Shown: piece after piece, positions 5,716 to 42,236 of the stretch | Layout: the number at the start of each line of letters is the position of its first letter | How positions within the stretch are numbered: the first letter of the stretch is position 1 | Assembly: GCA_025362495.1 (NCBI GenBank) | Contig: JANYGI010000030.1 | Location: 1 to 43,302 of the forward strand | DNA: 43,302 nucleotides | Source: Byssovorax sp. | GTDB taxonomy: Bacteria > Myxococcota_A > Polyangia > Polyangiales > Polyangiaceae | Reading direction: 5' to 3' | Notes under the pieces: model-generated | Told to the model about the DNA's origin: nothing | The model's database searches: none | The model's input: only the letters and a program-made list of their open reading frames with translations | Translations under genes and position numbers: made by a program

Positions 5716-5885
5716 AGAATTCTTCAGCCAGATGAATGTTTGTTGGACCAACCCGGGTCACGACACCGCGGAATCGCGACCAGGGGGCGGCGTGCGCCTC
5801 GCATAGCAGACGGCGTTCCATGCCGATCGTGGAGAGCTGATGTCCATCCGTGTCGATCGCGTGAATCCGATCGGACCCGCGAGGA
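5688..5885. repeat. Duplicated leader/promoter region, copy A
   Basis: About 190 bases covering the first codons and upstream region of the propeller-like lipoprotein gene recur at 8425-8612 with roughly 80-85% identity by eye. Shared landmarks are the block around TACATAGAATTCTTCA, the block CACGCCGCGGAATCGCGACCA (CGACACCGCGGAATCGCGACCA here), and the block CGGCGTTCCATSCCGA. The conserved stretch reaches about 170 bases upstream of the ATG, so it probably includes the promoter. The remaining gap to 5971 shows no gene. Confidence 0.85.
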
Positions 5886-5971: not shown

Positions 5972-6565
5972 TCAAACGGGCTCTTTCGGTGGTCCACACA
6001 GGTCCTGGCTCCGCCGACGGGGCGGGCGGTGGAGCAGCGCGCGCCCGCTCGTGGTGCACCGGAGCACGGTGAGCGCCTCCACCACGGCGACCTCGATCAA
6101 TCCACGAGTGAGCAGCGCGCCTGCCGTTCGAGGGTGGATGCTGGCGCGCGGTGCGCCGTCGGGTGCGCCGGCGATCACCCGGAGCGCCTCGACCTGGAGC
6201 TTCCTGGCGTCGCGTCGTGCGGGGCTCGGCGGGCGCACCGCCGCGCGGGGAAGCGGCGCTTCTCCCTCGGCCTCGAGCGCCTCGTCCGCGGGAAAGTCGG
6301 TCCAGTCCACGCGCCCGGGATCGTCGACCAGCTTGGTGCCGGCCACGAAGCTCGCGCCTGCGGGCGGACGGCCCGATTTCCAGGCGCTGAGGCCGGAGAG
6401 GGCCTGACGCGATGGAAGCTCGCGCACGGTGCCGTCGCGATAGACCCACACGCGAAGCCGCGCCCAGGGGATCTCGCGAGGCCGGTGCGTCGCGTGCGGG
6501 GCCTCGGCGCCCTGCGCGTCGCTGTGCGTGCTGTCTGCGTGAGTCGGCGGACCGAGCAAATCCAT
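5972..6565 (-). CDS. Winged-helix-like protein of unknown function (paralogue 1)
   Basis: A 197-residue protein that I do not recognise from a named family, but clearly paralogous to the gene at 21020-21538. Shared features are an N-terminal strand motif (WxxLxVWxY), the segment LSAWxxGxxPPGxSFVAG, the motif VDDPGRxDWxDFP, and a C-terminal region (QVEALR through LLTRGLIE to TSGRALL) that reads like a winged helix-turn-helix. A DNA-binding or adaptor role is inference only. There is no signal peptide, so it is probably cytosolic. The ATG at 6565 lies at the position homologous to the start of the lipoprotein gene at 11140 within a duplicated promoter region, which supports this start. The C-terminus is Arg/Pro-rich and longer than in the paralogue. 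Confidence 0.75.
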   Translation of the reverse strand: MDLLGPPTHADSTHSDAQGAEAPHATHRPREIPWARLRVWVYRDGTVRELPSRQALSGLSAWKSGRPPAGASFVAGTKLVDDPGRVDWTDFPADEALEAEGEAPLPRAAVRPPSPARRDARKLQVEALRVIAGAPDGAPRASIHPRTAGALLTRGLIEVAVVEALTVLRCTTSGRALLHRPPRRRSQDLCGPPKEPV

Positions 6566-6586
6566 CGTCGTGGCGCCTCCACGTGA

Positions 6587-6613
6587 TGTTCTTGCGACGC
6601 CCCGGAACCTTCA
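6587..6613 (-). promoter_or_regulatory. Bipartite ECF-type promoter motif a(-)
   Basis: On the minus strand TGAAGG (complement of 6608-6613), 15 bases, then AGAACA (complement of 6587-6592). It points toward the start of the gene at 6565, about 21 bases further on. The spacing equals that of the other five copies in the window. It is back to back with motif a(+), and together they form the 8-base inverted repeat AACCTTCA/TGAAGGTT at 6606-6613 and 6639-6646. Confidence 0.5.
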
Positions 6614-6638
6614 AGGAAACTTCAGGTGATCAATTTCG

Positions 6639-6665
6639 TGAAGGTTCGCGCGGCTCGCGTGAACC
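6639..6665 (+). promoter_or_regulatory. Bipartite ECF-type promoter motif a(+)
   Basis: TGAAGG at 6639-6644, exactly 15 bases, then TGAACC at 6660-6665, preceded by an AT-rich CAATTTC stretch. It is nearly identical to copy b(+) at 11214-11240. It faces a truncated gene start (6680-6790), so this promoter now seems to drive no intact gene. Confidence 0.5.
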
Positions 6666-6679
6666 GCTGATCGGCCGGC

Positions 6680-6790
6680 GGCGATCGTCTCGTCGCGCTC
6701 GCTGCGTCGAGGGCGAGCAGGCGTACGCCAGCAGCGCTGGATCGACCCCGGGAGATGCCCTTGAAGCAATTTTTTCTCGCCCCGATCGCG
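6680..6790 (+). pseudogene. Truncated relic of a lipoprotein gene start
   Basis: This stretch matches the leader and first codons of the gene at 12143, including the conserved small hairpin CCAGCAGCGCTGG (6728-6740) and the coding start reading LKQFFLAP against LKRFFIAT. After about ten codons similarity ends and the reading frame has no lipobox or propeller sequence. The segment before it (6680-6714) matches the terminator region at 12059-12096, while 6600-6680 matches the promoter at 11180-11256. The locus is therefore best explained as a duplicate from which the gene equivalent to 11290-12033 and most of the gene equivalent to 12143-13216 were lost. The rest of the gap to 6875 holds no gene. 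Confidence 0.7.
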
Positions 6791-6875
6791 GCGCGGCCAC
6801 GCCGTCACCGCCTGAGCCGGTCGAGAAAGAGTCCTGATCTCCGGCTCGTCCGGGGCCGCGTCAGGGCATCCACCA

Positions 6876-8333
6876 TCAAGGCGCGCTCCCCGATACTCCA
6901 CAGGGCACCCCCGACCACGGCCGGGCCAGGAGTGGAATCGTCATTCCCACCGCGTGCGCGCCGGTGAAGTCGAACATATCGAGCAGGGCGTCCGAGTTGG
7001 CGTCGCGCGCCGTCAACGCCGGCAAATCGAAGAGGGCTTCGAGGAACCGGAGGATGCTCGTGTGGCTGTGGGTCACGTGCGAGACACCCTGCACGGCCCA
7101 CGGCGATACCACGAAGAGTGGGACACGGAAGCCAAGATAGTTGAACTCCTCTTGCGTCGGATCGGGGGGCGGAGCGCTCGGCGGGACGACGTGGTCGAGG
7201 TATCCCCCGCTCTCATCGTAAGAGATGAAGACCGCCGTCGACGGCCATCCGGGGCTCTTCAACACGTGATCGAGGATAAGCTCGCCCACGAGCCGCTCTC
7301 CAGGATGGACCGTGTCGTCGCCGCTCGCTTCAGGGTGCTCGTCGAGCCCCGGCCCACCATCGACGAACCAGACGATGGGCTGGCTCTTCACCGGATCGAA
7401 TGCGTCGACGTCAGCGAGGAACTCTGTATAAGATACGATATGACCGAAGCCCGAGCCGCCCGGCTCGAAGCGAGGCCCGAGCGTCCCCTCGGCGATCCCG
7501 GTGACGCCGGACCCCGTGGCCGGTCCGGGATTCCTCGAAGCATAGGCCCAGCCGACGTGGCCATTGTCCAGCTCGTCGAAGATTGATGGGGCGGTGGGAT
7601 AGGGGTGCTGGCCGGTATTCTTGATCCCCTGGCTCGTGCCCAGGTAGAGATAGTTGCGATTGGCCCAGGTCCCCCCGAGCGCCGAGCAAAAATAGCGATC
7701 CGCGAGGCCGAACCGCGCTCCAAGCGACGTGTAAAAGGGGTGGTCGTCATCCATGTAAAAGCCCATCGCGTTGTCGCCGCTCTGCGGCATGTCGACGAGC
7801 GTCCCGTCGCTCCACTGCGCGTGCATCGCATTCCATTGGTGCCCCTGGTCGCTCGGGCACGCCGTCGCGAGGCGGAACGGCGCAGGTTTCCAGCTGGGCA
7901 CGGGCGACACCGGGTTGCGGAGGCTGTCGACCCCTGGAATTTCCGTGAAGCCAAAGAAGTTATCCATGGAGTGATTCTCCTGGATCAAGACGATCACCTG
8001 CCGGATCTTCTCCTGCGCAGCCTTCGAATCGTCGAGCGTCTCGGCCGGAGTGTCTCCGCCGCGGAAGACGCCGCGATCGCGGAGCTCCGCCTTCGTCCCT
8101 CCATGCGCGCGGTCACATTGCCCGGCTTCGCGGACCCAGCTCGTGCAATAAGGGAAGGCGTCCCCCAGCGGGCCAACGTCGTTGCCCTCCGTGCACGCCC
8201 CGGAGCACCACCCGCAGCCGTCCGCCCGCGAGGCGAGGCACGTTTCACAGCTCGTTCGATCGGCGCATTCGCCGGAGCCACCACACGCGCCAAGAAGGAG
8301 CAGTAGAGCCGTGACGAGCCGCGTCGCGTTCAC
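6876..8333 (-). CDS. Phosphoesterase lipoprotein (phospholipase C / AcpA family)
   Basis: A 485-residue exported phosphoesterase of the family that includes non-haemolytic phospholipase C and acid phosphatase AcpA. It would cleave phosphate esters outside the cytoplasm. The family signature appears as VIVLIQENHSMDNFFG, followed by NRNYLYLGTSQG, the active-site region VWFVDGGPGLDEHP, and FISYDESGGYLDHVVPP. I prefer the GTG at 8333 because a normal lipoprotein signal (ATRLVTALLLLLGAC) follows at once. An in-frame ATG at 8450 would add 39 residues that are clearly the remains of another gene. After the lipobox comes a short Cys-rich PSI-like motif (CETCLASRADGCGWCSG). The gene follows Cys-rich lipoprotein genes on the same strand but at a distance of more than 400 bases. 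Confidence 0.9.
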   Translation of the reverse strand: MNATRLVTALLLLLGACGGSGECADRTSCETCLASRADGCGWCSGACTEGNDVGPLGDAFPYCTSWVREAGQCDRAHGGTKAELRDRGVFRGGDTPAETLDDSKAAQEKIRQVIVLIQENHSMDNFFGFTEIPGVDSLRNPVSPVPSWKPAPFRLATACPSDQGHQWNAMHAQWSDGTLVDMPQSGDNAMGFYMDDDHPFYTSLGARFGLADRYFCSALGGTWANRNYLYLGTSQGIKNTGQHPYPTAPSIFDELDNGHVGWAYASRNPGPATGSGVTGIAEGTLGPRFEPGGSGFGHIVSYTEFLADVDAFDPVKSQPIVWFVDGGPGLDEHPEASGDDTVHPGERLVGELILDHVLKSPGWPSTAVFISYDESGGYLDHVVPPSAPPPDPTQEEFNYLGFRVPLFVVSPWAVQGVSHVTHSHTSILRFLEALFDLPALTARDANSDALLDMFDFTGAHAVGMTIPLLARPWSGVPCGVSGSAP

Positions 8334-8336
8334 CCG

Positions 8337-8450
8337 GCTCACGTCGGGGGCGGCGGCGCGATCAGGGGCGCGAACGCCATCCCACGGCTCCACGCTGCTC
8401 TTCGCCAGGCACGCGCCCCGAAAGGCAGAGCGTCGAAGTGACGGGTACAT
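8337..8450 (-). pseudogene. Deletion relic of a second propeller-like lipoprotein gene
   Basis: Reading on the minus strand, the first ten codons (MYPSLRRSAF) match the start of the gene at 4594-5715 and are joined directly to sequence matching its last codons: GACLAKSSVEPWDGV against GACLVKSGMDLWDGAGV, then a Pro/Ala tail. Similarity continues through the old stop region (TGAGCCGGG in both). Here the TGA has slipped out of frame, so the relic runs on in frame into the phosphoesterase gene. About 1 kb of the middle of the gene is missing. Confidence 0.85.
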
Positions 8451-8612
8451 AGAATTCTTCAACCGGATGAATGTTTGCTGGATCAACCAACGTCACCACG
8501 CCGCGGAATCGCGACCACGGAGCAGCGCGCGCCACGCATAGCAGGCGGCGTTCCATCCCGACGGTGGAGAGCTCGTGTCCATCGCACCGGTCGCATGAAC
8601 CCGGTCGGACAT
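8425..8612. repeat. Duplicated leader/promoter region, copy B
   Basis: Second copy of the leader at 5688-5885. It includes the relic start codon and about 160 bases upstream. It may still supply the promoter for the phosphoesterase gene. The following stretch from 8613 to 8768 shows no gene or recognisable signal. Confidence 0.85.
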
Positions 8613-8768
8613 GCGATGACGAAAGCTCGCTGTCACGCGCAGGAGTCATCACGGCTCTGCGCGTCGGGCAGCGCTTCAATTCGTTCGTCGTCCGGCACGC
8701 CGATCAACGCTCCTCCGCGAGGCCTTCCGCTTCATCGGCGCTGTCGTCGGGCCACGGCACAGTGTCTC

Positions 8769-9137
8769 TCACGGCTTCTCGTTCTCCTCCGGCACATCGC
8801 AGAACGTCGCCGGCGCGACGCCCATGCAGCGATAACCAGCGCGCTTGCAGTCTGCCTGGCTCTTGCACCCCTGGAAGCACTCTTTCTCGTCCGGCCTGCA
8901 CACGTTGCCAGCGCCGCAATCTGCGCTCGTCGCGCACTTCTTCGTGCACTCCCCGCCGGGATCGTCATTGTCGCACGACGCGCCGTCTTCACAGCTCGCG
9001 TCCGTGGTGCAGGGGCCGCCGATCGGCGATCGCGCGGCGGAGGCCGATGCGCCGGCCGGCGGGTGGCCCGGCGTGCAGGAGGACGTCGCGAGCGCGAGAC
9101 CTGCGAGCGTCAGTGATCCGAGCAAATACATGTTCAT
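8769..9137 (-). CDS. Small Cys-rich lipoprotein
   Basis: A 122-residue lipoprotein with signal peptide and lipobox (LATSSC at residues 16-21). The mature part contains twelve or so cysteines in a spaced pattern (CTTDASCEDGASC, CTKKCATSADCGAGNVC, CFQGCKSQADC) that resembles the disulfide-rich dickkopf/EB-like modules common in myxobacterial surface proteins. It starts 24 bases after the stop of the upstream lipoprotein gene and is probably the last gene of a minus-strand operon with 9162-10487 and 10499-11140. The larger neighbour carries the same Cys pattern at its C-terminus. Function unknown. Confidence 0.8.
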   Translation of the reverse strand: MNMYLLGSLTLAGLALATSSCTPGHPPAGASASAARSPIGGPCTTDASCEDGASCDNDDPGGECTKKCATSADCGAGNVCRPDEKECFQGCKSQADCKRAGYRCMGVAPATFCDVPEENEKP

Positions 9138-9161
9138 GGTGGGTTCCGTGGAGCGGCGCGC

Positions 9162-10487
9162 TCAGGGCGTGCATTTCCCGGTGGCGGCAGCGCACTTGAG
9201 CGGGCTCGTGCAGCCCGCGTCGTCCTTGCAGGCGAACCCGCACGCGTGGTCGCTCGGGCCGAAGCCCGACGGCGGCGTCGTCGGGAAGAGCTGGCAGACA
9301 TAGCCGTCCTTCACGCGACAGTCACTGTCGGCCGCGCACGCCTTCAAACACCCGGGCGTCTCGAAGGGCTGCGAGACGCAGGTGCCGCCTGGCGCGCAGA
9401 CCTGCACGTCGTTGCACGGCTCCATCGCGCAGTACCCGCCGGGGTACTTGTCGCCCGCCGCCGTCAGGCACGCAGAGCGCGAGTCGGTCCCGCAATCGGA
9501 CGTCGTCGTGCAGGTGGTGCCGATGCTCGCCGTCGCGGGATCGGGCGCGCACGTTCCACCGGCGTTCGCGGCGTCGCAGACCTCGTCCGTCCCGCAGTCC
9601 GCCTTGACCTTGCACTTCGCCCCGAGCCCCGATTTCGGCGGAGCGCCGTCGGGCGGACAATCGAAGAGCAGCTCCAGCGTGTCGATCTGGAGCGCGCCGG
9701 CCTCGGTCTCCGTCTCCGTGGCCATCGTGTCTTTGGCCGGCACCGACGTCTTCATCGTGGTGAGGCTCTGATCGATGTCGCCCACGACCGTCTGCGTCCC
9801 GCCGACGCGATGGCAGGTGGGGACGCGCTTCTCGATGGCCGGCTTGGAGGCGGCGAAGTCGGTCGACAGCGAGTCCAGATCCTTCGCCGTGGCGGCCCAG
9901 TCCCCGAAATGAGCGTCGATGCCGAGCTGGCGGTACATCGCATCCATCCGCACGATCGCGATCGGCGCGTCCGGCTTGAAGTAGTCGAAGAGCTGCGGCG
10001 CCGCGAGGCCGACTGCGTTGGACGCGGTCACCGCGGACTTCTGATCCTTGGCGGTGATGGCTTTGCCGAGCGTGACGATCGCCTCGTCGACGGCCTTCAC
10101 CTGGGGTGCGGGGAGACCAGGACAGGCCATCTTGCTCTTGCCCCAGACCTCCTGGAGGATCGTCAGCACCGTCGCGGCGCGATCCCAGTCCGGCGTCCGC
10201 GCCGGGAGCTCGCCAAACGTGCTCCCGACGAGCCCTTCCCCGCTGCGCTCGACGTCGCGCATGTCCGCCGGAACGATGCCGTTCTGCGGGCACGCTCCGG
10301 GCGTCGCGCCTCCGCTCCCCGTCGAGCCTCCGCTCCCGGTAGAGGTAGAAGAAGTGGAGGTGGAGGCCGTCGATCCGCCGCTCGAACATGCAGAGAGCAG
10401 CGAGCCGGCGAGCGCGAGCGCTGCGAGGCTGGACCGGCCGAGTCGGAGAGAGTGGGGAGATGAAGTCATTTCAAGGAACGCTTTCAT
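9162..10487 (-). CDS. Lipoprotein with helical core and Cys-rich C-terminus
   Basis: A 441-residue lipoprotein with lipobox (LLSAC) and a Ser/Thr/Gly-rich linker. The middle (about residues 75-260) is helical, with a repeated style of Ala-rich helices and the text DAMYRQLGIDAHFGDW. The final 150 residues are Cys-rich with repeats of the form CxxxADCGTDEVC, TSDCGTDS and DSDCRVKDGYVC. Start choice is uncertain: ATG codons at 10487 and 10469 both give a workable signal peptide and neither has a clear ribosome site. The gene begins about 11 bases after the stop of the gene at 10499, so translational coupling is likely. No enzyme motif is visible and I do not recognise the family. Confidence 0.8.
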   Translation of the reverse strand: MKAFLEMTSSPHSLRLGRSSLAALALAGSLLSACSSGGSTASTSTSSTSTGSGGSTGSGGATPGACPQNGIVPADMRDVERSGEGLVGSTFGELPARTPDWDRAATVLTILQEVWGKSKMACPGLPAPQVKAVDEAIVTLGKAITAKDQKSAVTASNAVGLAAPQLFDYFKPDAPIAIVRMDAMYRQLGIDAHFGDWAATAKDLDSLSTDFAASKPAIEKRVPTCHRVGGTQTVVGDIDQSLTTMKTSVPAKDTMATETETEAGALQIDTLELLFDCPPDGAPPKSGLGAKCKVKADCGTDEVCDAANAGGTCAPDPATASIGTTCTTTSDCGTDSRSACLTAAGDKYPGGYCAMEPCNDVQVCAPGGTCVSQPFETPGCLKACAADSDCRVKDGYVCQLFPTTPPSGFGPSDHACGFACKDDAGCTSPLKCAAATGKCTP

Positions 10488-10498
10488 GAGTGAAGCAT

Positions 10499-11140
10499 TC
10501 ACGGCTCGTGCCCCTCGGGGCACCACGTCGCGGCGAAGGTGCCTTTCAACGTGCCATCCGTGAACTGGAGGTCGAAGCTGCCACTGGCGAGCTTCGCGGG
10601 GTCGAGCGTATCGAGCTGCACAGTGCCGCCGTTGCTCGCGCTCTCGACGGGCGTCGCGGCGGTCGAGCTGACGGTGAAGTTGACCGAGGCTTGTCCCTGG
10701 GCCGGGGTGACCCCCTTGGCGACCGCGTACTTCCCGGGCTCAGCGCCGATGAGCTTCATCTCGAGCGCGCCGGTGGCGTCGGGGATCTTCTTGTCCCAGC
10801 CGGCAGCTCCGAGATCGGCGCAGCTCACCTTCGTATCGAAGACGTAAATGACGGTCGTGTGCGTCGGATCGTCGCTCTGGCCGATGAAATACGCGGAAGC
10901 GACGGTGTCGACGCTCTTGCCGCCGGCCTTGCCGCTGATGGTGCCCAGATCGCCGCCGCCGGCGCCGCCCGACGTCGATCCCGATCCCGATCCCGATCCG
11001 CCGGCGCCGCTCGACGTCGAGAAGCCGCCGCCCGACGTTGCTCCCGTGCCGCCGCAGCCGAGCAGCAGAGCAATCGCCGCGAGCGCGGCTCGCCGCCACG
11101 GGTTCATCCCTTGATCCAGAGTGACATGCCGAGTGACCAT
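10499..11140 (-). CDS. Lipoprotein of unknown function
   Basis: A 213-residue lipoprotein with a lipobox at AIALLLGC and a Gly/Ser-rich linker, then a compact domain of beta strands with two or three cysteines. The ATG at 11140 is at the position homologous to the start of 5972-6565 in the duplicated promoter. A second ATG at 11107 gives a more typical signal peptide (MNPWRRAALAAIALLLGC) but has its AAGGG directly abutting the start. It is the first gene of the minus-strand lipoprotein operon and is divergent from the gene at 11290, sharing the bidirectional promoter region 11162-11240. Confidence 0.8.
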   Translation of the reverse strand: MVTRHVTLDQGMNPWRRAALAAIALLLGCGGTGATSGGGFSTSSGAGGSGSGSGSTSGGAGGGDLGTISGKAGGKSVDTVASAYFIGQSDDPTHTTVIYVFDTKVSCADLGAAGWDKKIPDATGALEMKLIGAEPGKYAVAKGVTPAQGQASVNFTVSSTAATPVESASNGGTVQLDTLDPAKLASGSFDLQFTDGTLKGTFAATWCPEGHEP

Positions 11141-11161
11141 CGTCGTCGCGCCTCGTCGTGG

Positions 11162-11188
11162 TGTTCATGGCACCGCCTGGAACCTTCA
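11162..11188 (-). promoter_or_regulatory. Bipartite ECF-type promoter motif b(-)
   Basis: On the minus strand TGAAGG (complement of 11183-11188), 15 bases, then TGAACA (complement of 11162-11167). It is 21 bases before the ATG at 11140. It is arranged back to back with motif b(+), forming the perfect 9-base inverted repeat AACCTTCAA (11181-11189) and TTGAAGGTT (11213-11221). Confidence 0.55.
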
Positions 11189-11213
11189 AGAAAACTTCAG
11201 TCGAGCAATTTTT

Positions 11214-11240
11214 TGAAGGTTCGCGCGGCTCGCGTGAACC
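11214..11240 (+). promoter_or_regulatory. Bipartite ECF-type promoter motif b(+)
   Basis: TGAAGG at 11214-11219, 15 bases, then TGAACC at 11235-11240, preceded by a run of T. It lies 49 bases before the ATG at 11290. The stretch between the half-sites (GGTTC to GAACC) could also fold as a short hairpin in this copy, but that fold is not conserved in copies c and d, whereas the spacing is. Confidence 0.55.
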
Positions 11241-11289
11241 GTTGATCTGCCTGCGGTCCGTCGCCGCGCGCTATCACAAGGAGATGCCC

Positions 11290-12033
11290 ATGAATCGACT
11301 GTCTTTCCTGCTGGCGGGGTCGTGCGCCCTCGTCGCCGTGTCCGCGTTCGGGTGCAGCGGGGCTCCGGCGCCGACGGCATCCACCCTCGCCGGCAGCGTC
11401 GCCCAGGCCTCGTTCCCGAAGGCCGTGAGCGCGATCATCGTGAAGAGCGATAGCGGCAAGACGTCGACCGTCGCGGTCGGCGCGGACGGGCGGTTCTCGG
11501 TCACGCTGGAGAAGGGCGCGAGCTATCAGCTCTTCCTCGGGGCAGACGGGAAGAGCATTCCCATCGTGCTCAAGAGCGATCAAGCCCGACTCCAGACCCA
11601 GGTGCACGTGAAATCGGGCGCCGCGCACCTGAATATCGGTAGCGTGCGCTACTGGGGTGGCGCGTCCACGTCGGAGGCGAAGGTCGTCGCCGGGCCCACG
11701 ACGGGCGCCAAGAGCTGTGTCGGCGGCGTGTTCGCGAACAGCTCGCAACCGTGCGCGAGCGGCACCTCCTCGGCGGTGTGCGGCGAGGGCGACGACGAAG
11801 AGTCGGACGGTGACGGTGAGCACAGCGGCGAGCACAGCGGCGAGCACAGCGACGAGCAGGGAGCCGACTGCGTCGATGGCCTCGACGCGACGACGAAACA
11901 ACCGTGCGACGGCGGCCCGGCGGCGAACCCGACCGACGCGGACGCGGCGTCGGAGGTCGGCGTCCCGGAGCTGAACACGCCCGGTGATCTGGGCTGCGGT
12001 GAGGGAGGCGACGACGGCGAAGAAGCGGACTGA
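11290..12033 (+). CDS. Acidic lipoprotein of unknown function
   Basis: A 247-residue lipoprotein with signal peptide and lipobox (VSAFGC). The N-terminal half (residues 30-120) looks like a small beta-sandwich, with the motif VAVGADGRFSVTLEKGASYQLFLG typical of carboxypeptidase-regulatory or prealbumin-like folds. The C-terminal half is low complexity and very acidic, with a short tandem repeat of GEHS (SGEHSGEHSDE) between two Cys-containing stretches that both read CxxG...QPC. AAGGAG six bases before 11290 fixes the start. It is transcribed away from the lipoprotein operon at 11140 from a shared promoter region and is followed by a strong hairpin terminator. Function unknown. Confidence 0.82.
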   Translation: MNRLSFLLAGSCALVAVSAFGCSGAPAPTASTLAGSVAQASFPKAVSAIIVKSDSGKTSTVAVGADGRFSVTLEKGASYQLFLGADGKSIPIVLKSDQARLQTQVHVKSGAAHLNIGSVRYWGGASTSEAKVVAGPTTGAKSCVGGVFANSSQPCASGTSSAVCGEGDDEESDGDGEHSGEHSGEHSDEQGADCVDGLDATTKQPCDGGPAANPTDADAASEVGVPELNTPGDLGCGEGGDDGEEAD

Positions 12034-12052
12034 CGTTTGGAGGCGACAGCGG

Positions 12053-12082
12053 TGCGCGCGGCGATCACGATCGCCGCGCGCA
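12053..12082 (+). terminator. Strong stem-loop terminator
   Basis: A 14-base perfect stem (TGCGCGCGGCGATC and GATCGCCGCGCGCA) with a minimal loop, starting 20 bases after the stop of the gene at 11290-12033 and followed by TTGCGTTT. A degraded version of this region survives at 6680-6714. Confidence 0.75.
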
Positions 12083-12096
12083 TTGCGTTTGGGGAC

Positions 12097-12142
12097 GAGC
12101 ACGCGTAAGCCAGCAGGGCTGGATCGCCCTCAGGAGACGACC
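12097..12142 (+). promoter_or_regulatory. Conserved leader with small hairpin
   Basis: The leader of the gene at 12143 contains the hairpin CCAGCAGGGCTGG and is repeated at 6715-6760 before a gene relic. The conservation of the hairpin in the dead copy may only reflect recent duplication. AGGAGA six to eleven bases before the TTG is the likely ribosome site. Confidence 0.5.
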
Positions 12143-13216
12143 TTGAAAAGATTCTTCATCGCGACGACCGCGGCTCCGCTCCTCTCACTCCTCGTGGCCT
12201 GTGGAGGGGGTGGCGGCGCGGTGAGCGCCCCGACCGCGGCAGCCGGTGTGACCCCGAACGCTATCCCGCGCGCGATTGCCCTGCCCGGCGGCGAATCCGG
12301 CGTATCAATGGATTACCTCGCCTGCGACCGCACGACGGGGCGAGTCTGGGTGCCCGCGGGCAACACCGGCAGCGTCGACGTCATCGATCCTTCGGGCGAC
12401 AAGGTGACGCGCATTCAAGGCTTCCCGACGGCGGAGCTCGAGCGCCATGGCAAGAAGCGTATCGTCGGCCCGAGCGCGGCGACGCTGGGCGACGGCGTGG
12501 CCTACGTGGGCAGTCGCGGCGATTCGAGCATCTGCGCGGTGGACACCACGACCCTGACGCGCGGCGCCTGCGTCGTCCTGGACTCGATGCCTGACGGCCT
12601 CGCGTTCATCGCCTCCACCAAGGAGGTCTGGGCGACGACGCCGCGGGACAAGTCGATTACCATCCTCGACGTCTCGACTCCCTCTGCGCCGAAGGTCAAG
12701 ACGAAGTTTTCCCTGGAAGGCGAGCCCGAGGGCTACGCCGTCGACGACGCGCGCGGGATCTTCTACACCAACCTCGAAGACAAGGACCGCACGCTGGCGA
12801 TCGACATCAAGTCGCGCAAGGTGCTCTCCACCTGGGAGCCGAAGTGCGGTGAAGACGGGCCCAAGGGCCTGGCGCTCGATCACGCGCTCCGCTTCCTCCT
12901 CGTCGCGTGCAGCGATCATGTCCTCGCCCTCGACGCAGGGCACGAGGGCAAGCTGCTCTCGCACATCGACACCGGCGAAGGCGTCGACAACATCGACTAC
13001 CTCGAGTCGCGGCACGAGCTCTACGCGGGCGCCGGGAAGGCGGCGAAGCTCACGATCGCCAGGCTCGATCCGGCCGGAGCGCTCAGCTCGCTCGCGGTGA
13101 TCGCGACCGTCGCCGGCGCGCGCAACGCCGTGGTCGACGCCGACGGGAACGCGTACCTCACCGACTCCGCGGGAGGGAAAATCCAGCGGATCGCCGCGGC
13201 TCCGCCGGCCAGGTGA
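12143..13216 (+). CDS. YncE-like beta-propeller lipoprotein
   Basis: A 357-residue lipoprotein translated from a TTG codon that is fixed by AGGAGA just upstream and by the signal peptide that follows (LKRFFIATTAAPLLSLLVAC). The mature protein shows repeated propeller-blade motifs such as TGRVWVPAGNTGSVDVID, FYTNLEDKDRTLAIDI, GHEGKLLSHIDTGEGVDNID and DADGNAYLTDSAGGKIQRI, as in YncE and related surface-layer YVTN proteins. These proteins usually bind ligands or partners rather than catalyse. The gene stands alone between a terminator and the ECF operon promoter. The truncated copy of its start lies at 6761-6790. Confidence 0.85.
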   Translation: MKRFFIATTAAPLLSLLVACGGGGGAVSAPTAAAGVTPNAIPRAIALPGGESGVSMDYLACDRTTGRVWVPAGNTGSVDVIDPSGDKVTRIQGFPTAELERHGKKRIVGPSAATLGDGVAYVGSRGDSSICAVDTTTLTRGACVVLDSMPDGLAFIASTKEVWATTPRDKSITILDVSTPSAPKVKTKFSLEGEPEGYAVDDARGIFYTNLEDKDRTLAIDIKSRKVLSTWEPKCGEDGPKGLALDHALRFLLVACSDHVLALDAGHEGKLLSHIDTGEGVDNIDYLESRHELYAGAGKAAKLTIARLDPAGALSSLAVIATVAGARNAVVDADGNAYLTDSAGGKIQRIAAAPPAR

Positions 13217-13262
13217 CATGACGTCGGATCGGATCGGCGCAGGCTGACGAGGTCATTTTGTG

Positions 13263-13289
13263 TGAAGGTCCGGCGCTGCCGCGTGAACC
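13263..13289 (+). promoter_or_regulatory. Bipartite ECF-type promoter motif c
   Basis: TGAAGG at 13263-13268, 15 bases, then TGAACC at 13284-13289, with CATTTTG upstream. It lies 28 bases before the predicted start of the operon that encodes an ECF sigma factor, as expected if that sigma factor drives its own transcription. Confidence 0.55.
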
Positions 13290-13317
13290 TCTGACGTGCT
13301 CGGCGATCTTGGCAGCA

Positions 13318-14289
13318 GTGAAGGCACGACGTGATGGCGCGCGACGGAATTTCTCGTCGCGCTGGGCTGGCGCGGCCGTCTTCGCTGCGATCGTCATCGC
13401 GCCGGAGGCCGCCCGCGCCGCCTGCTCGCTGGTGCAGATCCGGACCGAGCCGGCGGTGCTCGCAGGAGATTGGCAGGCCGCGGTCGTGGACTTGATCGAG
13501 CAGACGCAACGCACGGGGATGCCGTGGAGCTGCGCGGGCGGCGCGCTCCTCGTGCGCCTCGACGGTGACGAGCGCGCGCTGCTTCGCTTCCGTGATCCGA
13601 CGGGGCGCGAGGTCGAGCGACACGTCCCTTCGTCGCGCGCGCTCGTCGCGACCGCGGAGGCGCTGCTGGCGAGCTCGGCGCCTCGCGAAGCGCCGCCGGC
13701 GCCGGTCGACGAGGCCGAGCGGGCCCTCGAGCGACCCACGTTCGACGACCACGCGGCGCGGGGGATCACTCCTTTGCAGCAAGAGCCGCGCTACATCGTC
13801 GACGCGACGGTGGGTATCCGCTTCAGCGGCCCCAGCGCCGCGCTCTGGGTCGCCCCGACGCTGCGCGCGACAGTGCCTTTCGAGGCGTGGTCGGTGGGCG
13901 TCTGGGTGCGCGCGGGGGTGCCCTACGTGTTCGAGCTCGTCCCGCCCAGCTTCATGATGTCGCAGGTGAACCTCGGCCTCTCCGCCGGGTGCACGCTGCT
14001 CTCCGCGCCGGTGGAGATCCGGATCGGGCTGAATCCTTCGCTGTCGGTCGTCACCATGGACGCCGACGCGATCGATCACGAGGCCTCGGGAGCGAAGGTC
14101 GACTTCTTCCTCGGCGCCGGGCTCAGCGGCGCGATCCCGTTCTCGCCGCGATGGCGGGGCGTCGTGATCGTCGACGCCGAGATGGCGCCGGCCGGCGTCC
14201 GCGCCGCTCGGCGGCTCGACCCGCTGCTCCCGGTGCTCCCCGCATACGAGGTCGGCGCGGCGTTCGGCGTCGAGCTGGTGGCGCGATGA
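13318..14289 (+). CDS. Exported barrel-like protein of ECF module 1
   Basis: A 323-residue exported protein. The GTG at 13318 is the first start after the promoter motif and is followed by a basic n-region, a hydrophobic core and a signal peptidase site (ARA-A, about residue 34). The N-terminal 100 residues form an alpha/beta region with an early Cys and a late Cys (MPWSCAGG) ending in the helical motif SRALVATAEALLASS. After a Pro-rich linker, alternating hydrophobic strands with aromatic residues (RYIVDATVGIRFSG, WVAPTLRATVPF, WSVGVWVRAGVPYVF) suggest an outer-membrane barrel. The gene overlaps the sigma gene by four bases (ATGA). Similar two-part proteins accompany the other two ECF loci, so a sensor role is inferred. 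Confidence 0.75.
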   Translation: MKARRDGARRNFSSRWAGAAVFAAIVIAPEAARAACSLVQIRTEPAVLAGDWQAAVVDLIEQTQRTGMPWSCAGGALLVRLDGDERALLRFRDPTGREVERHVPSSRALVATAEALLASSAPREAPPAPVDEAERALERPTFDDHAARGITPLQQEPRYIVDATVGIRFSGPSAALWVAPTLRATVPFEAWSVGVWVRAGVPYVFELVPPSFMMSQVNLGLSAGCTLLSAPVEIRIGLNPSLSVVTMDADAIDHEASGAKVDFFLGAGLSGAIPFSPRWRGVVIVDAEMAPAGVRAARRLDPLLPVLPAYEVGAAFGVELVAR

Positions 14290-14891
14290 GGAGCTCGAAG
14301 ACGCGCGAAGAGAGGCCGTTCAGCGCCGGTGCGCGCGCGGGCGCGAACGAGTCGGACGTGGAGCTCTTCGCCGCCATGAGCGCGGGCAACCTCACCGCTC
14401 TCGGCGTGCTCTACGATCGTCATCACCCGGGCGTGCGCCGCTTCGTTCTCCGCACCGCCGGCGGCGGCGCCGACACCGAAGATCTCGTGCACGACATCTT
14501 CCTCACGGCGGCGCGCGTCGCGGGCACCTACGACGATCGCGCGGGCGCGCGCCCGTTCCTGCTCGGGATTGCCGCCAACATCGTGCGTTCGCGCCGGCAA
14601 AAGCAGGCGCGCTGGCGCGTCGCGCTCGGCCTGCTCGAAGGCGCGCTCACCGGCGTCCTGCGGCGCACGCCGGAGGACGGCGCGAGCGAGACCGAGCAGC
14701 TACGGTTGCTGGACGTCGCGCTCGCGCGTCTGTCCGAGGAAAAGCGTCTCGTCCTCGTGATGGTCGAGCTGGAAGAGCTCTCGGGAGAAGAGGTCGCCGC
14801 GGCGCTCGGGATCCCGGTCGCCACCGTGTGGACGCGGCTCCATTACGCGCGCGCCGAAGTGCGCGAGCACCTGAAGCGGAGGATGCGATGA
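14286..14891 (+). CDS. ECF sigma factor (module 1)
   Basis: A 201-residue extracytoplasmic-function sigma factor directing RNA polymerase to a small regulon. Region 2 is visible at about residues 35-100 (LGVLYDRHHPGVRRFV and the motif DTEDLVHDIFLTA), and region 4 at about 140-200 with the helix-turn-helix LSGEEVAAALGIPVATVWTR. Its start overlaps the barrel-like gene and its stop overlaps the anti-sigma gene, so all three are translationally coupled. The bipartite motif at 13263-13289 is the most likely autoregulated promoter. Confidence 0.93.
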   Translation: MRSSKTREERPFSAGARAGANESDVELFAAMSAGNLTALGVLYDRHHPGVRRFVLRTAGGGADTEDLVHDIFLTAARVAGTYDDRAGARPFLLGIAANIVRSRRQKQARWRVALGLLEGALTGVLRRTPEDGASETEQLRLLDVALARLSEEKRLVLVMVELEELSGEEVAAALGIPVATVWTRLHYARAEVREHLKRRMR

Positions 14892-15973
14892 AACCCGAGC
14901 CGTGCTCCATGGCGCTTCTGGTCGAGGCCAAACGCGACGGGCGACTCCGCGATCGCGAGCTGTCATCGATCGATCGTCACCTCGCGAGCTGCGTGTCGTG
15001 CGCCGAGCTGGCGCGCGATCTCGATCAGGTCCGGGTGCTCCTGCGTTCGCCCGCGCCGGAGCCGACGCCGCTGGAGGTGCAGCGCGGCCGGCTCAAGCTT
15101 CTGCGCGAGGCTGCTTTGCCGTCGTCGTCCCCTGCAGTGAGGGGCGGCAACCGTCCGAGGCTCGCGGTCGCGCTCGCAGTCGTCAGCTTCGCGGCGCTGT
15201 TCTTCGTGCTTCAACGGCGCTCGATCGAGCACGGAAATGCCGTCGTGGAGGCGCCGTCGCCCAGCGCGAGCGCGCCGGTGCGCACGGTCACCACGGTCGT
15301 GCCCGAGGGCGACGCGCGCTTCGTCCGCGCGACGGATGGGAGGACAGAGATTGTCACGCTCGAGAGCGGCGCCGTCGATCTCTCGGTACGGCATCTGAGC
15401 GCCGGAGATCGCTTCCTCGTGAAGACCGGCGACGCCGAGGTCGAGGTGCGTGGCACGGTGTTTCGCGTGGAAGCGGCGGACAATCGCCTCCAGAACGTGG
15501 AGGTTGTCGAAGGCAAGGTCGAGGTGCGCTTCCGGGGAGGCACCATCTTCTTGACGGCCGACGAGCGGTGGGACCGGCCCGCGGACGCGCGGTCGATCAC
15601 GCCGAAGGCAGGGCCAGTCGACGCGCGCTCCGCGGCGCCGACGAGCGCGCCAATCGCGGCAGCGAGCGCGAAGCGTGGGCCGGCCTCGCCGCGTCCCGTT
15701 GCATCGGCAAAGCCACCTGTAGAGGACGGCTTCGTCGAGGGTATGGGCATGATGGAGCGCGGCGACTACGACGCTGCGGCCAGGCACCTCGACGCGTTCT
15801 CGAAGAGCAACGCCCACGATGATCGGGCAGAAGACGCGGCGTTCCTCGTGATCCTCGCCCTCCAGCGCGCCGGGCGCGCCGCCGAGGCGGTGGCCGCGGC
15901 GCGCCGCTACCTGGGCGCGTATCCCGCTGGATACCGCCGCGCCGAGGCGCAGGCCATCGCCGACGCGCCGTGA
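14888..15973 (+). CDS. ZAS/FecR-type anti-sigma with TPR-like C-terminus
   Basis: A 361-residue single-pass membrane protein. The N-terminus holds the zinc-binding anti-sigma motif H31-x3-C35-x2-C38, which would grip the sigma factor encoded just upstream. A transmembrane helix follows at about residues 95-112. The periplasmic part has a FecR-like domain (about 130-210; VVPEGDARFVRATDG, HLSAGDRFLVKTGDAEVEVRG, VEVVEGKVEV), an Ala/Pro-rich linker, and a final 80-residue helical segment resembling TPR repeats (MMERGDYDAAARHLDAF). The ATG at 14888 overlaps the sigma stop codon. FecR proteins normally relay an outer-membrane signal to an ECF sigma factor; here the outer-membrane partner is probably the barrel-like protein of the same operon. 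Confidence 0.9.
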   Translation: MKPEPCSMALLVEAKRDGRLRDRELSSIDRHLASCVSCAELARDLDQVRVLLRSPAPEPTPLEVQRGRLKLLREAALPSSSPAVRGGNRPRLAVALAVVSFAALFFVLQRRSIEHGNAVVEAPSPSASAPVRTVTTVVPEGDARFVRATDGRTEIVTLESGAVDLSVRHLSAGDRFLVKTGDAEVEVRGTVFRVEAADNRLQNVEVVEGKVEVRFRGGTIFLTADERWDRPADARSITPKAGPVDARSAAPTSAPIAAASAKRGPASPRPVASAKPPVEDGFVEGMGMMERGDYDAAARHLDAFSKSNAHDDRAEDAAFLVILALQRAGRAAEAVAAARRYLGAYPAGYRRAEAQAIADAP

Positions 15974-16001
15974 GCTGATGTTCCACGAGGTCAATTCCCG
16001 C

Positions 16002-16469
16002 ATGAAACGTGTCTTCTCTTCTCGCGTCTTCGTCCTCGGCTTGATCGCGCTCGCCGCGGCCGCGTGCAGCTCCGGCGACTCCGCCACCGGAGGCGGCGCC
16101 GACGCGGGCGACCAGCCCTGGCTGCGAATCAAGCCGACCTGGGCCTCGATCTACGACGGGTATTTCGGCCCTTCCGGCGTGGCGAGCTGCTCGAATGGAT
16201 CCACCTGCCACACCACGCCGGACACCTCCGGCGTCGTCGCGAGCAACTTCTCCTGCACCGACAAGGACGCGTGCTACGCGTCGCTCCACGGGGCCTCTCA
16301 CCTGATCCGCTCGCAAGACCCGATGGATCCCGCGGCGACACCGCTCCTCGCGAAGCTGCGGCAGAACACCGGCATGGGGAGGATGCCGAGCAACTCGATG
16401 TTCCTGTTTCAGCCTCAGGACGTCGACGTGCTCAAGACGTGGATTGGCAATGGAGCAAAGAACGACTGA
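16002..16469 (+). CDS. Cytochrome c-like lipoprotein with unusual haem motif
   Basis: A 155-residue lipoprotein starting at the second ATG (16002, MKRVFSSR), with lipobox ALAAAAC. The mature part resembles the short c-type cytochromes of myxobacteria: a Cys...CysHis site written C-S-N-G-S-T-C-H (five residues between cysteines instead of two), a late MP motif (GRMPSNSM) that could supply the distal Met, and a C-terminal helix VDVLKTWIGNGAKND typical of cytochrome c folds. Haem attachment through a CX5CH site is not established, so the protein may instead be a haem-free derivative. It lies 28 bases after the anti-sigma gene and may be part of that operon. Confidence 0.7.
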   Translation: MKRVFSSRVFVLGLIALAAAACSSGDSATGGGADAGDQPWLRIKPTWASIYDGYFGPSGVASCSNGSTCHTTPDTSGVVASNFSCTDKDACYASLHGASHLIRSQDPMDPAATPLLAKLRQNTGMGRMPSNSMFLFQPQDVDVLKTWIGNGAKND

Positions 16470-16552
16470 CTCGCGGTTCGAGGGTTCCTTCAGGCGCCGG
16501 ACACGCGCCCGCTGTCGGCTGGCCGACGTCACGACGATCTCGTGCGATTTTT

Positions 16553-16579
16553 TGAAGGTCCAGACGGCTCGGAAGAACT
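16553..16579 (+). promoter_or_regulatory. Bipartite ECF-type promoter motif d
   Basis: TGAAGG at 16553-16558, 15 bases, then AGAACT at 16574-16579, after the T-rich stretch GATTTTT. It lies 84 bases upstream of the dihaem cytochrome gene at 16664. The second half-site is the most diverged of the plus-strand copies. Confidence 0.45.
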
Positions 16580-16663: not shown

Positions 16664-17680
16664 ATGAAAAATTTCATCCGCGTGGCCTTGCTGGCGACGT
16701 TCGCATCGTCGGTCGCCATGGCTGCCTGCTCGAGCGGCGGCACGGGGGGCACCAGCACGGCGGGGACGAGCGGTACGGGTGGATCCGGCGGGGGCACCAT
16801 GAACGCGGCGTCGGTCGCGCGCGGCAAATATCTCGTGGACAACCTGCTCGCTTGCGGTGAATGCCACACCCCGGTGGACGCCAATGGCAAGCCGGACAAG
16901 ACGAAGTACCTCGCAGGGAGTCGGTCGTACGACTTCAAGACGTCGATGGGCGACATCGTCTCTGTTTACGCGGAGAACCTCACCTCCGACAAGGTCGAAG
17001 GCGTCGGCGACTGGTCGGACGACCTGGTCAAGGGCGCGATCACCAAGGGGATCGACGACGTGCAGGTGCCGCTCTGGCCCATCATGCCGTATCCGGAATA
17101 TGCCCTCATGTCGTCGCAGGACGTGCAGGCGATCGTCGACTACCTGCGGACGGTCGCTCCGAGCAAGAACGTCGTACCGCCGGACACGTACCCGAACCCC
17201 GGCTCGCCCGCGGCCACCGTCAACGGCTCGAAGATCCCGCACACCACGCTCCCCAAGACCGATCCGGACTACGCGTCGGCCGAGCGCGGGCGGTACCTCG
17301 CCAGCATCGCGTGCGTCAACTGCCACACGCCGGAGCTCGCGCCGGGGCTCCCCGATTTCACCAAGCCTTTTGCGGGCGGGCGAACGTACCGCTCGCGGTC
17401 GGACGTGGGCTTCTCGACGTCGACGAACCTGACGCCCGACGCGACCGGATTGGCTGGCTGGAGCGTCGCCGACATCGCGGAGTCGATCAAGACCAACACC
17501 GAGAAGGGCACGAAGCGCCCGCTCTGCGACACCATGCCCGGCGGGCCGGGGCGCATGGGCGATCTCACCGACGGAGACCTCACCGATCTCGGTACGTACC
17601 TGCACACCATCCCGGCGATCAAGAGCGCCGTGTACCAGTGCGGCATGGACGCGAGCGATGCCGGCGCCGACGGCGGCTGA
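16664..17680 (+). CDS. Dihaem cytochrome c lipoprotein
   Basis: A 338-residue lipoprotein with lipobox (VAMAAC) and Gly/Thr-rich linker. Two cytochrome c domains follow, each with a standard CXXCH haem site: CGECHTP at about residue 64 and CVNCHTP at about residue 219. Each is preceded by the helix motif RGxYLxxxxxC. Candidate distal Met residues lie in WPIMPYPEYALMS. The arrangement is like the membrane-linked dihaem subunits that pass electrons from periplasmic dehydrogenases. No partner dehydrogenase is encoded nearby. The ATG is preceded by CAGGAG seven to eight bases upstream. It belongs to a run of three cytochrome-like genes and has its own candidate ECF-type promoter. Confidence 0.9.
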   Translation: MKNFIRVALLATFASSVAMAACSSGGTGGTSTAGTSGTGGSGGGTMNAASVARGKYLVDNLLACGECHTPVDANGKPDKTKYLAGSRSYDFKTSMGDIVSVYAENLTSDKVEGVGDWSDDLVKGAITKGIDDVQVPLWPIMPYPEYALMSSQDVQAIVDYLRTVAPSKNVVPPDTYPNPGSPAATVNGSKIPHTTLPKTDPDYASAERGRYLASIACVNCHTPELAPGLPDFTKPFAGGRTYRSRSDVGFSTSTNLTPDATGLAGWSVADIAESIKTNTEKGTKRPLCDTMPGGPGRMGDLTDGDLTDLGTYLHTIPAIKSAVYQCGMDASDAGADGG

Positions 17681-17750
17681 GAGACAATCAGGCCACTGCC
17701 CCGACCGGGCGCTTGCCGCTGGATGATCGATGTCCAGGACGAGGTTCTTC

Positions 17751-18884
17751 ATGTCGAATGCACACCGGAGCGGGTCGCCCTTCACGAGGCTCGCCTCCGC
17801 CCGCAACAAGACCCTTGCCCTGTGGCTCGTCCTCGCGGCAGGCGTCCTGGCGAGCTGCTCCGGCGACGGGGGGAGCGCCGCGACCACGGGGACCGAGGTG
17901 CCCGACGCGGGTATGCCTCCCGACGCCGGGCCGGCCTGCGTCGATCCGACCGACGGTCCGCCGACTGACATCTTCTGCACCGGCCTCTACGAGAACCACG
18001 ACTCGACGCAGCACGCCAAGACCGCGATCCCGTACACGCCGGGCCTCACGTTCTGGAGCGACGGCGCCCAGAAGGATCGGTATCTCTACCTGCCGCCTTC
18101 GACGAAGATCGACACGTCGAACATGGACGCCTGGAAGTTCCCCGTCGGGACGAAGGCCTGGAAAGAGTTTCACGTCGGCGGCGTGCTCGTCGAGACCCGC
18201 TTTCTCTGGAAGCAGGCCGAGATGACGTGGGCCGAGGCGGCCTACATCTGGGACGCCGGCGCGAAGAACGCGGTGCTGACCGACCGCGAGACTCCCACGG
18301 TGCTGGCCGGCGGCTACGAGATACCCTCCCTCAAATCGTGCCGCAAATGCCATGGCGGCGGCGGCGACGAGCTCCTCGGCGTCGAGGCTATCGCGCTCGG
18401 CGCGCCCACGGGCAAGGGCGTCACGCTCGCGAGCCTCGCCGCGGGAGGCCAGCTGAGCGCGCCGCCCGCGACGACGTCAATCACGCTCCCCGAGGACGCG
18501 ACCGGGAAGGCGGCGGCCGCGCTGGGCTATCTGCACGTGAACTGTGGAATGGGGTGCCACTCGAACCGCGGGTTATCAGGGTTCACGCAGCTCCACACGC
18601 GGCTCCGCGCCGAGGAGTTCTGGCCGGCCCCTGGCGGCAAGGTCTCGACTGTGGAGACGACGGACGCGTACACGACCGGCATCAACCAGGACGTCATCCT
18701 GGCCACCTACGCGCAGGCATTCCCGGGCACGAAGCTCATCCTCCCGGGGTCGAGCGACAAGAGCCTGGCGTGGCTCACCGCCCATCTGCGCGGGACCCAC
18801 CAGATGCCTCCAATCGTCAGCCACATGGTCGACGACGCCGGCACGCAGAAGCTCGCCGACTGGATCGACGCGCTCCCGAAGTAA
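17751..18884 (+). CDS. Cytochrome c-like lipoprotein with two haem-type sites
   Basis: A 377-residue lipoprotein with a long basic n-region and lipobox (GVLASC). I favour ATG 17751 because AGG stands six bases before it; an in-frame ATG at 17730 would add seven residues. Motifs are SCRKCHGG (standard CXXCH) at about residue 200 and NCGMGCHSN (three residues between cysteines) at about residue 265. The late segment THQMPPIVSHMVDD could supply distal Met ligands, and the last helix LADWIDALPK is cytochrome c-like. Such large proteins occur in myxobacteria next to other cytochromes. The precise redox role is unknown. Confidence 0.85.
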   Translation: MSNAHRSGSPFTRLASARNKTLALWLVLAAGVLASCSGDGGSAATTGTEVPDAGMPPDAGPACVDPTDGPPTDIFCTGLYENHDSTQHAKTAIPYTPGLTFWSDGAQKDRYLYLPPSTKIDTSNMDAWKFPVGTKAWKEFHVGGVLVETRFLWKQAEMTWAEAAYIWDAGAKNAVLTDRETPTVLAGGYEIPSLKSCRKCHGGGGDELLGVEAIALGAPTGKGVTLASLAAGGQLSAPPATTSITLPEDATGKAAAALGYLHVNCGMGCHSNRGLSGFTQLHTRLRAEEFWPAPGGKVSTVETTDAYTTGINQDVILATYAQAFPGTKLILPGSSDKSLAWLTAHLRGTHQMPPIVSHMVDDAGTQKLADWIDALPK

Positions 18885-40447: not shown

Positions 40448-40464
40448 GCCACCGAAGGTACAGG

Positions 40465-40478
40465 AGGGATAATTCCCT
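40465..40478. promoter_or_regulatory. Small palindrome before the Cys-rich lipoprotein operon
   Basis: AGGGATAATTCCCT is a near-perfect dyad 18 bases upstream of the ATG at 40447. It may be an operator. The rest of the gap to 40700 holds only a weak GGGCC/GGCCC hairpin and no gene. Confidence 0.25.
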
Positions 40479-40700
40479 GGCATCCTTTTTCTGGCCATGC
40501 TCCGCGCCCCGTCTGCGACGTTCAGGGGCCTTGGAGAAAAGCGGTGCCGCTATTGATCCGCGTCTCCCAGCGCCAATCCTGTGACGCCGGGCCGCCTGGC
40601 CCGCGGCTCCCCCCTCGAAGCATCCGTGAGTCTGCGGCGACGCGCCGCGCAGGGCGTGAACGGGTACTGACAGTGAGTGCGATCGATGGGAGCACTTGAT

Positions 40701-41081: not shown

Positions 41082-41093
41082 GCCATACCTCCT

Positions 41094-42222: not shown

Positions 42223-42236
42223 CGAACTACCTCCCT

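Follow-up and report, generated by a model that had tools for sequence, protein, structure and literature searches.

Putative TGAAGG-type promoters of a probably autoregulated ECF sigma factor in a Byssovorax contig

Introduction

RpoE-RseA and SigW-RsiW each combine an extracytoplasmic function (ECF) sigma factor with a membrane anti-sigma factor; both are autoregulated, and their pairing and consensus promoters are known. The ECF promoters of Bacillus, TGAAAC-N16-CGTA, have nearly the same register as the TGAAGG-N16-CGAA form considered below, and an AAC core is common in ECF -35 elements, though it is no requirement. We analysed the contig JANYGI010000030.1 of a Byssovorax genome (10.8 Mb in 240 contigs, 96.6% complete); the whole stretch of 43,302 nt is called the window. 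Six promoter-like sites were found in it near the operon of an ECF sigma factor encoded at 14286-14891, and we consider it very probable that these are core promoters for this sigma factor and that the sigma factor is autoregulated.

As in the RpoE and SigW systems, the locus encodes an ECF protein with sigma2 and sigma4, an adjacent anti-sigma candidate lies beside it, and the -35 and -10 blocks are about 16 bases apart; it differs from them by an AAGG in the -35 element and by an anti-sigma candidate with a FecR domain and tetratricopeptide repeats (TPR). The presence of an ECF sigma factor, a FecR-domain regulator and an outer-membrane protein in one unit resembles FecI-FecR-FecA signalling, as outlined in the cited sections of PMC9249621 and PMC2729926. 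However, the outer-membrane protein of the window is modelled as an eight-stranded barrel with a small N-terminal domain and not as a TonB-dependent transporter, its gene is the first of the operon, and TPR are present in the regulator along with an HxxxCxxC motif of zinc type. No TonB-dependent receptor was found within the sigma operon; the rest of the genome was not searched for one. The Leptospira pair LIC_12757/LIC_12756 is similar in that, in the excerpts of PMC12155086, an ECF sigma factor is autoregulated under a FecR-like protein, but Leptospira belongs to another phylum, and the likeness concerns the sigma factor and its regulator. CorE of Myxococcus xanthus is likewise a myxobacterial ECF sigma factor whose small regulon was sought by motif (portions of PMC3107203 and PMC8103513); CorE represents a metal-responsive group with a C-terminal extension, whereas the sigma factor of the window terminates shortly after sigma4.

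Regulons under ECF sigma factors, regulators of the FecR type and promoters specific to a group are all established, as the cited parts of PMC8103513, PMC10880074, PMC9249621 and PMC12155086 indicate. What differs here is the AAGG of the -35 element, the tryptophan-bearing recognition helix and the unit made of barrel, zinc motif, FecR and TPR. No report of this promoter or sigma group was present among the literature matches listed; the published main ECF classification was outside this comparison and may already list the group.

Results

The six sites and the sigma operon

The putative promoter copies are the following.

6587..6613, minus strand: copy a, TGAAGG-N15-AGAACA, 21 nt before the open reading frame 5972-6565
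6639..6665, plus strand: copy b, TGAAGG-N15-TGAACC, faces a relic in which no counterpart of lipoprotein gene 11290-12033 follows
11162..11188, minus strand: copy c, TGAAGG-N15-TGAACA, 21 nt before lipoprotein gene 10499-11140
11214..11240, plus strand: copy d, TGAAGG-N15-TGAACC, 49 nt before lipoprotein gene 11290-12033
13263..13289, plus strand: copy e, TGAAGG-N15-TGAACC, read as autoregulatory, with the sigma operon (first gene 13318-14289) beginning 28 nt further on
16553..16579, plus strand: copy f, TGAAGG-N15-AGAACT, 84 nt before a dihaem cytochrome gene

The genes of the sigma operon are listed below.

13318..14289, plus strand: first gene, export-signal-like start (by eye), predicted N-terminal alpha/beta domain and C-terminal eight-stranded outer-membrane beta-barrel
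14286..14891, plus strand: ECF sigma factor of 201 amino acids, recognition helix TVWTRLH
14888..15973, plus strand: anti-sigma candidate with the zinc-type motif HLASCVSC, a FecR domain, a hydrophobic segment (by eye) and a TPR match below cut-off
15978..16469, plus strand: short lipoprotein-like gene that probably closes the operon; the script's start call places it 4 nt beyond the anti-sigma gene

The preliminary description had reported six copies of TGAAGG-N15-TGAACC. All six positions and the spacing of exactly 15 bases between the hexamers proved correct, but the second hexamer is TGAACC in only three sites (6639(+), 11214(+) and 13263(+)), while one mismatch is present at 11162(-) (TGAACA) and two are present at 6587(-) (AGAACA) and 16553(+) (AGAACT). 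The looser form WGAACM, also given there, fitted the second hexamers read in the window. A distance of 21 to 84 bases to the start codon was found for five sites (21, 21, 49, 28 and 84 for copies a, c, d, e and f), and the site at 6639 faces only the relic.

A search for TGAAGG-N15-TGAACC with at most two mismatches gave nine matches in the window, as compared with a mean of 1.56 in shuffled sequences, and nine were reached in none of 100 shuffles; the matches beyond the six sites are at 2137(-), 31477(+) and 42784(-). The pattern TGAAGGTYC-N13-GAAC, which was composed after the sites were known, fits all six, occurs six times in the window and is absent from each of 200 dinucleotide shuffles. 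A T-rich tract, overlooked earlier, lies directly upstream of the first hexamer at the window sites, and AAGG is present in this hexamer in all six. The two blocks, their spacer (15 bases in all six sites, mostly 16 in relatives) and their location close upstream of genes agree with an ECF-type promoter. Four of the five gene-facing sites are located 21-49 nt from the start codon, and this leaves little room for another promoter. In the cited part of PMC10880074, a spacer range of 15-17 nt is applied to ECF02 and ECF11 promoters.

Comparison of 6562-6681 with 11137-11256 showed 84.2% identity over 120 bp, and the relic at 6678-6792 is 75.2% identical to 12058-12174. The pairs 6587/6639 and 11162/11214 are a single divergent promoter pair that was duplicated, so that the six copies are not independent and represent about four independent lineages. 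Since one intergenic region is clearly duplicated, the sites could be mere repeats left by local duplication, with no regulatory role. We find this hardly credible: 13263 and 16553 are located outside the duplicated stretch, TGAAGG and GAAC are unchanged within the duplicated pairs even where the spacers have diverged (6587 and 11162, which have kept TGAAGGTTC and GAAC), and in other genomes the motif stands in different surroundings. The sites at 6639 and 11214 are identical across 27 bases. A 202-bp repeat (5684-5885 and 8419-8619, 84% identical) belongs to the same patchwork of local duplications.

Putative promoters upstream of related sigma operons

Each of the 183 genomes of the order that were searched contained homologues of the sigma factor, as is expected of ECF proteins generally. 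Sixty stretches were fetched, 56 of them around sigma homologue genes, and 57 operons were counted, that of the window included (L164 has no gene call, L160, L161, L162 and L179, which were fetched by motif, have no sigma gene, and L172 has two). The motif was located directly upstream of the sigma operon in many of these loci, and a further copy followed the FecR gene in several. A first motif matrix, trained on the six sites, gave many weak matches, and a second was trained on 26 sites including those of relatives; to avoid judging sites by a matrix trained on them, we turned to unbiased counts of every hexamer in the stretch 20-130 nt ahead of each operon.

The results of these counts showed that TGAAGG is the commonest upstream hexamer, both overall (21 of 57 operons) and in the held-out operons that were not used for the motif (16 of 36, the next best hexamer reaching 12), and that it is again first in the latter under another start rule (14 of 36). 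Alignment of 18 held-out promoters on [TC]GAAGG alone brought out a block GGC(G/C)AANA at offsets 20-27, the place of a -10 element, in which G21 is conserved in 15, C22 in 16, and A24 and A25 in 12 each of the 18 promoters. This block also bears on the possibility that the sites are operators, where a dimeric activator or repressor would bind TGAASS half-sites two helical turns apart while another sigma factor transcribes. TGAAGG and TGAACC are indeed alike, and their starts are 21 bp apart in the three exact copies; however, the second block of the relatives is GGC(G/C)AA, one base further than in the window and no repeat of the first block, most distances to the start codon leave little space for a separate promoter, and the motif follows the related sigma gene across genomes. 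Operators are for these reasons very improbable, and we retain the reading of the sites as promoters.

A second collection was made by scanning 84,980 species genomes for TVW[TR]RLHxAR, which gave 144 stretches and 134 confirmed relatives, of which 80 were kept. By their labels, almost all of these 80 come from myxobacteria or deltaproteobacteria (Minicystis rosea, Polyangium and Sorangium cellulosum among them), with the exception of one labelled Rhodobacterales and one labelled only 'bacterium'; TVW-x-RLH was common to the 15 sigma factors aligned. Sixty-one loci were usable, 17 having no sigma gene call and two having too little upstream sequence, and the gene caller was a simple one, some of whose start calls are wrong. 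TGAAGG was found upstream of 24 of the 61 operons when 1.24 were expected, and ranked first by count and by z. Among the 361 other genes of these loci it stood upstream of 23 (Fisher p 1.3e-10), and among the 20 usable other ECF operons of the source genome (from 27 loci) upstream of one. A -10-like block is seen at about half of the 23, and lipoprotein-like proteins are the products of many, so that these genes may be further targets. The AAC core is absent from the window sites and from nearly all the counted sites of relatives, in which AAGG is found as in the window.

Both the reading as ECF promoters and the autoregulation put forward in the preliminary description are supported by the enrichment of TGAAGG at held-out operons, the emergence of a block at -10 spacing and the low rates in control genes and other ECF operons.

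Two lipoprotein genes from two genomes that are alike by eye (L236, 4834-5637(-), and L244, 5518-6312(-)) have TGAAGG 62 and 34 nt upstream, respectively, and are possible regulon members. L160 (G150:C85) is a decayed locus: at 9862-10197(-) it retains the promoter together with the beginning of the barrel gene, and neither sigma nor FecR was found in the stretch.

Putative promoters upstream of target homologues

The putative targets in the window are the following.

5972..6565, minus strand: putative target of copy a, 197 amino acids, no known domain, paralogue at 21020-21538(-)
10499..11140, minus strand: putative target lipoprotein, probably followed by 9162-10469; the same pair is found in L158
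11290..12033, plus strand: putative core target lipoprotein, beta-rich domain and long low-confidence acidic tail
16664..17680, plus strand: dihaem (two CxxCH) cytochrome c, putative target downstream of copy f
17730..18884, plus strand: SO2930-family dihaem cytochrome c-like protein, possibly co-transcribed, 122.8 bits, below the curated cut-off of the family (313.3)

Homologues of 11290-12033 within the fetched sigma loci (E 1e-4) had the promoter upstream in 10 of 10 cases, with TGAAGG in nine and TGAAGT in one, and those of the overlapping loci of the second collection had it in seven of eight (all except L251). The 183 genomes were also searched with a profile of these homologues (query A3), whose eight rows recur among the matches, so that this is only a partly fresh test. 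The search gave 25 matches in 17 genomes, two of which are pieces of one gene, and hence 24 distinct homologues at E<=1e-6. By eye, the promoter was present at 16 of the 24 (the second block of L293 being weak), with TGAAGG in 14, TGAAGT in L309 and TGAACG in L308, and at 14 of the 15 strongest homologues, that of the window included. Twelve of the 16 were already known, query rows among them, so the search largely re-found known genes; the promoter was found at four of the 12 newly examined homologues (L298, L305, L307 and L308). Between one of these (L307, G129:C1:5146198) and the closest-lying of the listed close sigma paralogues there is about 0.55 Mb, and regulation therefore need not be only local. 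For 10499-11140, two of four distinct homologues have the motif or a one-letter variant, L228 at 43 nt (TGAAGG) and L158 at 67 nt (TGAACG).

Distribution of the motif in the source genome and in other genomes

A motif count above chance in the whole genome, which the preliminary description had made a test of its proposal, was obtained: TGAAGGT-N15-GAAC occurs 20 times in the source genome, compared with four for the reversed control. Six of the 20 are the window sites, and the other 14 all lack the T-rich tract. Twelve of these 14 are located in long stop-free frames whose third-position G+C reaches 0.80 or more (the case is less clear for L011 and L017), although stop-free frames abound in DNA as G+C-rich as this and extend over the window sites as well, so that the frame by itself is not decisive. 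The T-tract joined to TGAAGGT-N15-GAAC was thus seen, within the source genome, only in this contig, where all copies lie within about 10 kb, beside the sigma gene. The Minicystis rosea genome (G129, 16 Mb) has five distinct matches to the T-tract pattern TTTTN{0,5}GAAGGNTCN{14,15}AA, each no more than about 7 kb away from one of its four best sigma paralogues. The T-tract was also considered as a required element and rejected as such; it is present in the window and near relatives and absent from most distant operons, and we regard it as accessory.

The sigma protein has 42 matches within the source genome, including two close paralogues (G000:C163 and G000:C11, with 54% and 52% identity), and its recognition helix is common to all aligned members. 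The sites could therefore be of this ECF class while the paralogue on C163 or C11 is their main user, or while several sigma factors share them. We regard this as unlikely. All the copies found of the T-tract joined to TGAAGGT-N15-GAAC are beside the 14286 sigma gene. Near the two paralogues, the top candidate sites differ in their letters and in having a spacer of 16 bases, a difference that counts for little with scores of 14.5 and 7.8 against 15.3 for the best shuffled sequence. The candidate site on C11 precedes a lipoprotein homologue. If 14286-14891 is the user of the sites, as we prefer, our guess is that the one-base shorter spacer may reduce cross-talk among paralogues.

Several observations, along with the existence of these paralogues, weigh against the promoter reading or limit its reach. 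In the second collection, 37 of the 61 related operons have no TGAAGG in the tested stretch, which is partly due to imperfect automatic start calls; in its more distant half (L244 onwards) GAAGGT (12 of 29) exceeds TGAAGG (10 of 29), and the strict full two-block pattern is less enriched (10 of 61 versus 10 of 361, p 1e-4). The loci of the 36-operon and 61-operon sets overlap heavily, so these counts are not independent, and the spacer of the window is one base shorter than that of most relatives. Eight of the 12 newly examined homologues of 11290-12033 have no promoter (L300, L303, L304, L306, L310, L312, L313 and L314), most of them being weaker matches. Apart from the sigma operon and lipoprotein 11290, conservation of the targets is poor, and the full motif was absent upstream of both cytochrome homologues seen (L093 and L150), so the cytochrome is not a conserved target. 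Looser T-tract patterns also match elsewhere in the source genome (seven of 10 in one scan; one at C164). In 108 family genomes the T-tract pattern used for Minicystis rosea gave 77 matches versus 47 for the summed control; outside sigma loci it is mostly background and informative by position only, and its design drew on sites from several of the scanned genomes, Minicystis rosea partly included. The -10-focused pattern TGAAGGTN{12,13}GGNCAAG was likewise mostly background in the 183 genomes, with frequent control matches, and was informative only as clusters beside sigma genes (G010 C55, G103 C252, G125 C146, G080 C11 and G074 C501).

Proteins of the sigma operon

The protein encoded at 14286-14891 matches Pfam Sigma70_r2, r4_2 and r4 and TIGR02937 above cut-off, its profile matches solved ECF sigma factors, and it has sigma-70 regions 2 and 4 only; on this domain content it is classed as an ECF (group IV) sigma factor. 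The recognition helix, TVW[TR]RLH in this group, differs from the TVRSRIF of the second- and third-best solved matches. The adjacent protein (14888-15973) has a FecR domain at 41.1 bits (cut-off 24), and its HLASCVSC, at residues 31-38, fits the N-terminal HxxxCxxC of zinc-type (class I) anti-sigma factors; from the gene order, this protein would bind and inhibit the sigma factor.

No Pfam family was found for 13318-14289 at E 0.01, and a comparison of its profile with the sequences of solved structures gave nothing at E 1. Its structure model, based on a 30-sequence alignment (mean predicted local distance difference test (pLDDT) 84.3), shows an alpha/beta domain, modelled with confidence, at the N-terminus and a strand-rich C-terminal part that we read as eight long strands. 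This part matches outer-membrane barrels, among them NspA (Z 18.5, root-mean-square deviation 2.9, 151 residues aligned) and OmpA (Z 17.1, root-mean-square deviation 2.4, 154 residues aligned); the listed VIA structure matches span residues 144-323.

Proposed mechanism

In the most likely explanation, a Myxococcota ECF sigma factor with a TVW[TR]RLH helix, accompanied by a zinc-motif/FecR/TPR anti-sigma factor and an outer-membrane barrel protein, controls its own operon and a regulon that is mostly local. RNA polymerase with the sigma factor 14286-14891 as its cognate partner would read the six sites, TGAAGG serving as the -35 element, with the T-rich tract directly upstream, and [TA]GAAC as the -10 element; transcription would be predicted to start a few bases downstream of the -10 block, giving a short leader. 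The site at 13263 would drive the operon of barrel protein, sigma factor, anti-sigma factor and lipoprotein, and hence autoregulation, while the other sites would drive nearby, mostly exported proteins (two lipoproteins, the small protein without known domain and the dihaem cytochromes), except 6639, which faces the relic. In the resting cell the sigma factor would be held and repressed by the membrane anti-sigma protein, with the zinc-type motif in the cytoplasm, one hydrophobic segment and the FecR and TPR parts outside. A change at the outer membrane, perhaps relayed by the co-transcribed beta-barrel protein, would be the signal that frees the sigma factor; gene order and models suggest that the barrel protein might act as the outer-membrane input to the FecR/TPR part.

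We propose more tentatively, and as less likely than not, that this represents a Myxococcota class of envelope signalling, where a small outer-membrane barrel with a periplasmic domain and a zinc-motif/FecR/TPR anti-sigma factor accompany an ECF sigma factor whose invariant-tryptophan helix reads an AAGG-type -35 element (TGAAGG). Each of its paralogues in one genome would control a small set of surface lipoprotein genes, mostly in its own neighbourhood, and the spacer (15 here, 16 in most relatives) may help to separate them. Large myxobacterial genomes hold many sigma factors, most of them probably without known targets; 109 are given for Sorangium So0157-2 in the cited part of PMC3696898. 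A promoter rule that joins TVW[TR]RLH in the sigma factor to TGAAGG upstream of the genes would allow prediction of regulons in uncultured relatives and offers a possible set of orthogonal promoters, and the barrel/FecR/TPR arrangement would be an envelope-crossing signalling route testable with few constructs.

Other genes and repeats of the window

The structure model of 11290-12033 is poor (mean pLDDT 59.5). The winged-helix-like nature earlier suggested for 5972-6565 was not borne out, as no Pfam or NCBIfam match was found for it at E 0.01. This gene and 21020-21538(-) encode small paralogous proteins (46% identity) with no known domain, one of which appears to have gained the duplicated promoter; the 108 family genomes contain one other relative of the pair, a weak one (G129, Minicystis).

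The gene at 6876-8450(-) encodes a phosphoesterase-family protein (PF04185, a phospholipase C-like family) whose N-terminal domain is of PSI type and rich in cysteine. The contig also has two more ECF sigma genes, at 30723-31250(-) and 36812-37306(-), with 35% and 30% identity to 14286-14891, respectively, and the sole motif match near them is the two-mismatch site 31477(+), in the opposite direction. Several tandem duplications are located in 38418-42792, for example 40684-41646 and 41822-42792, which are 81% identical.

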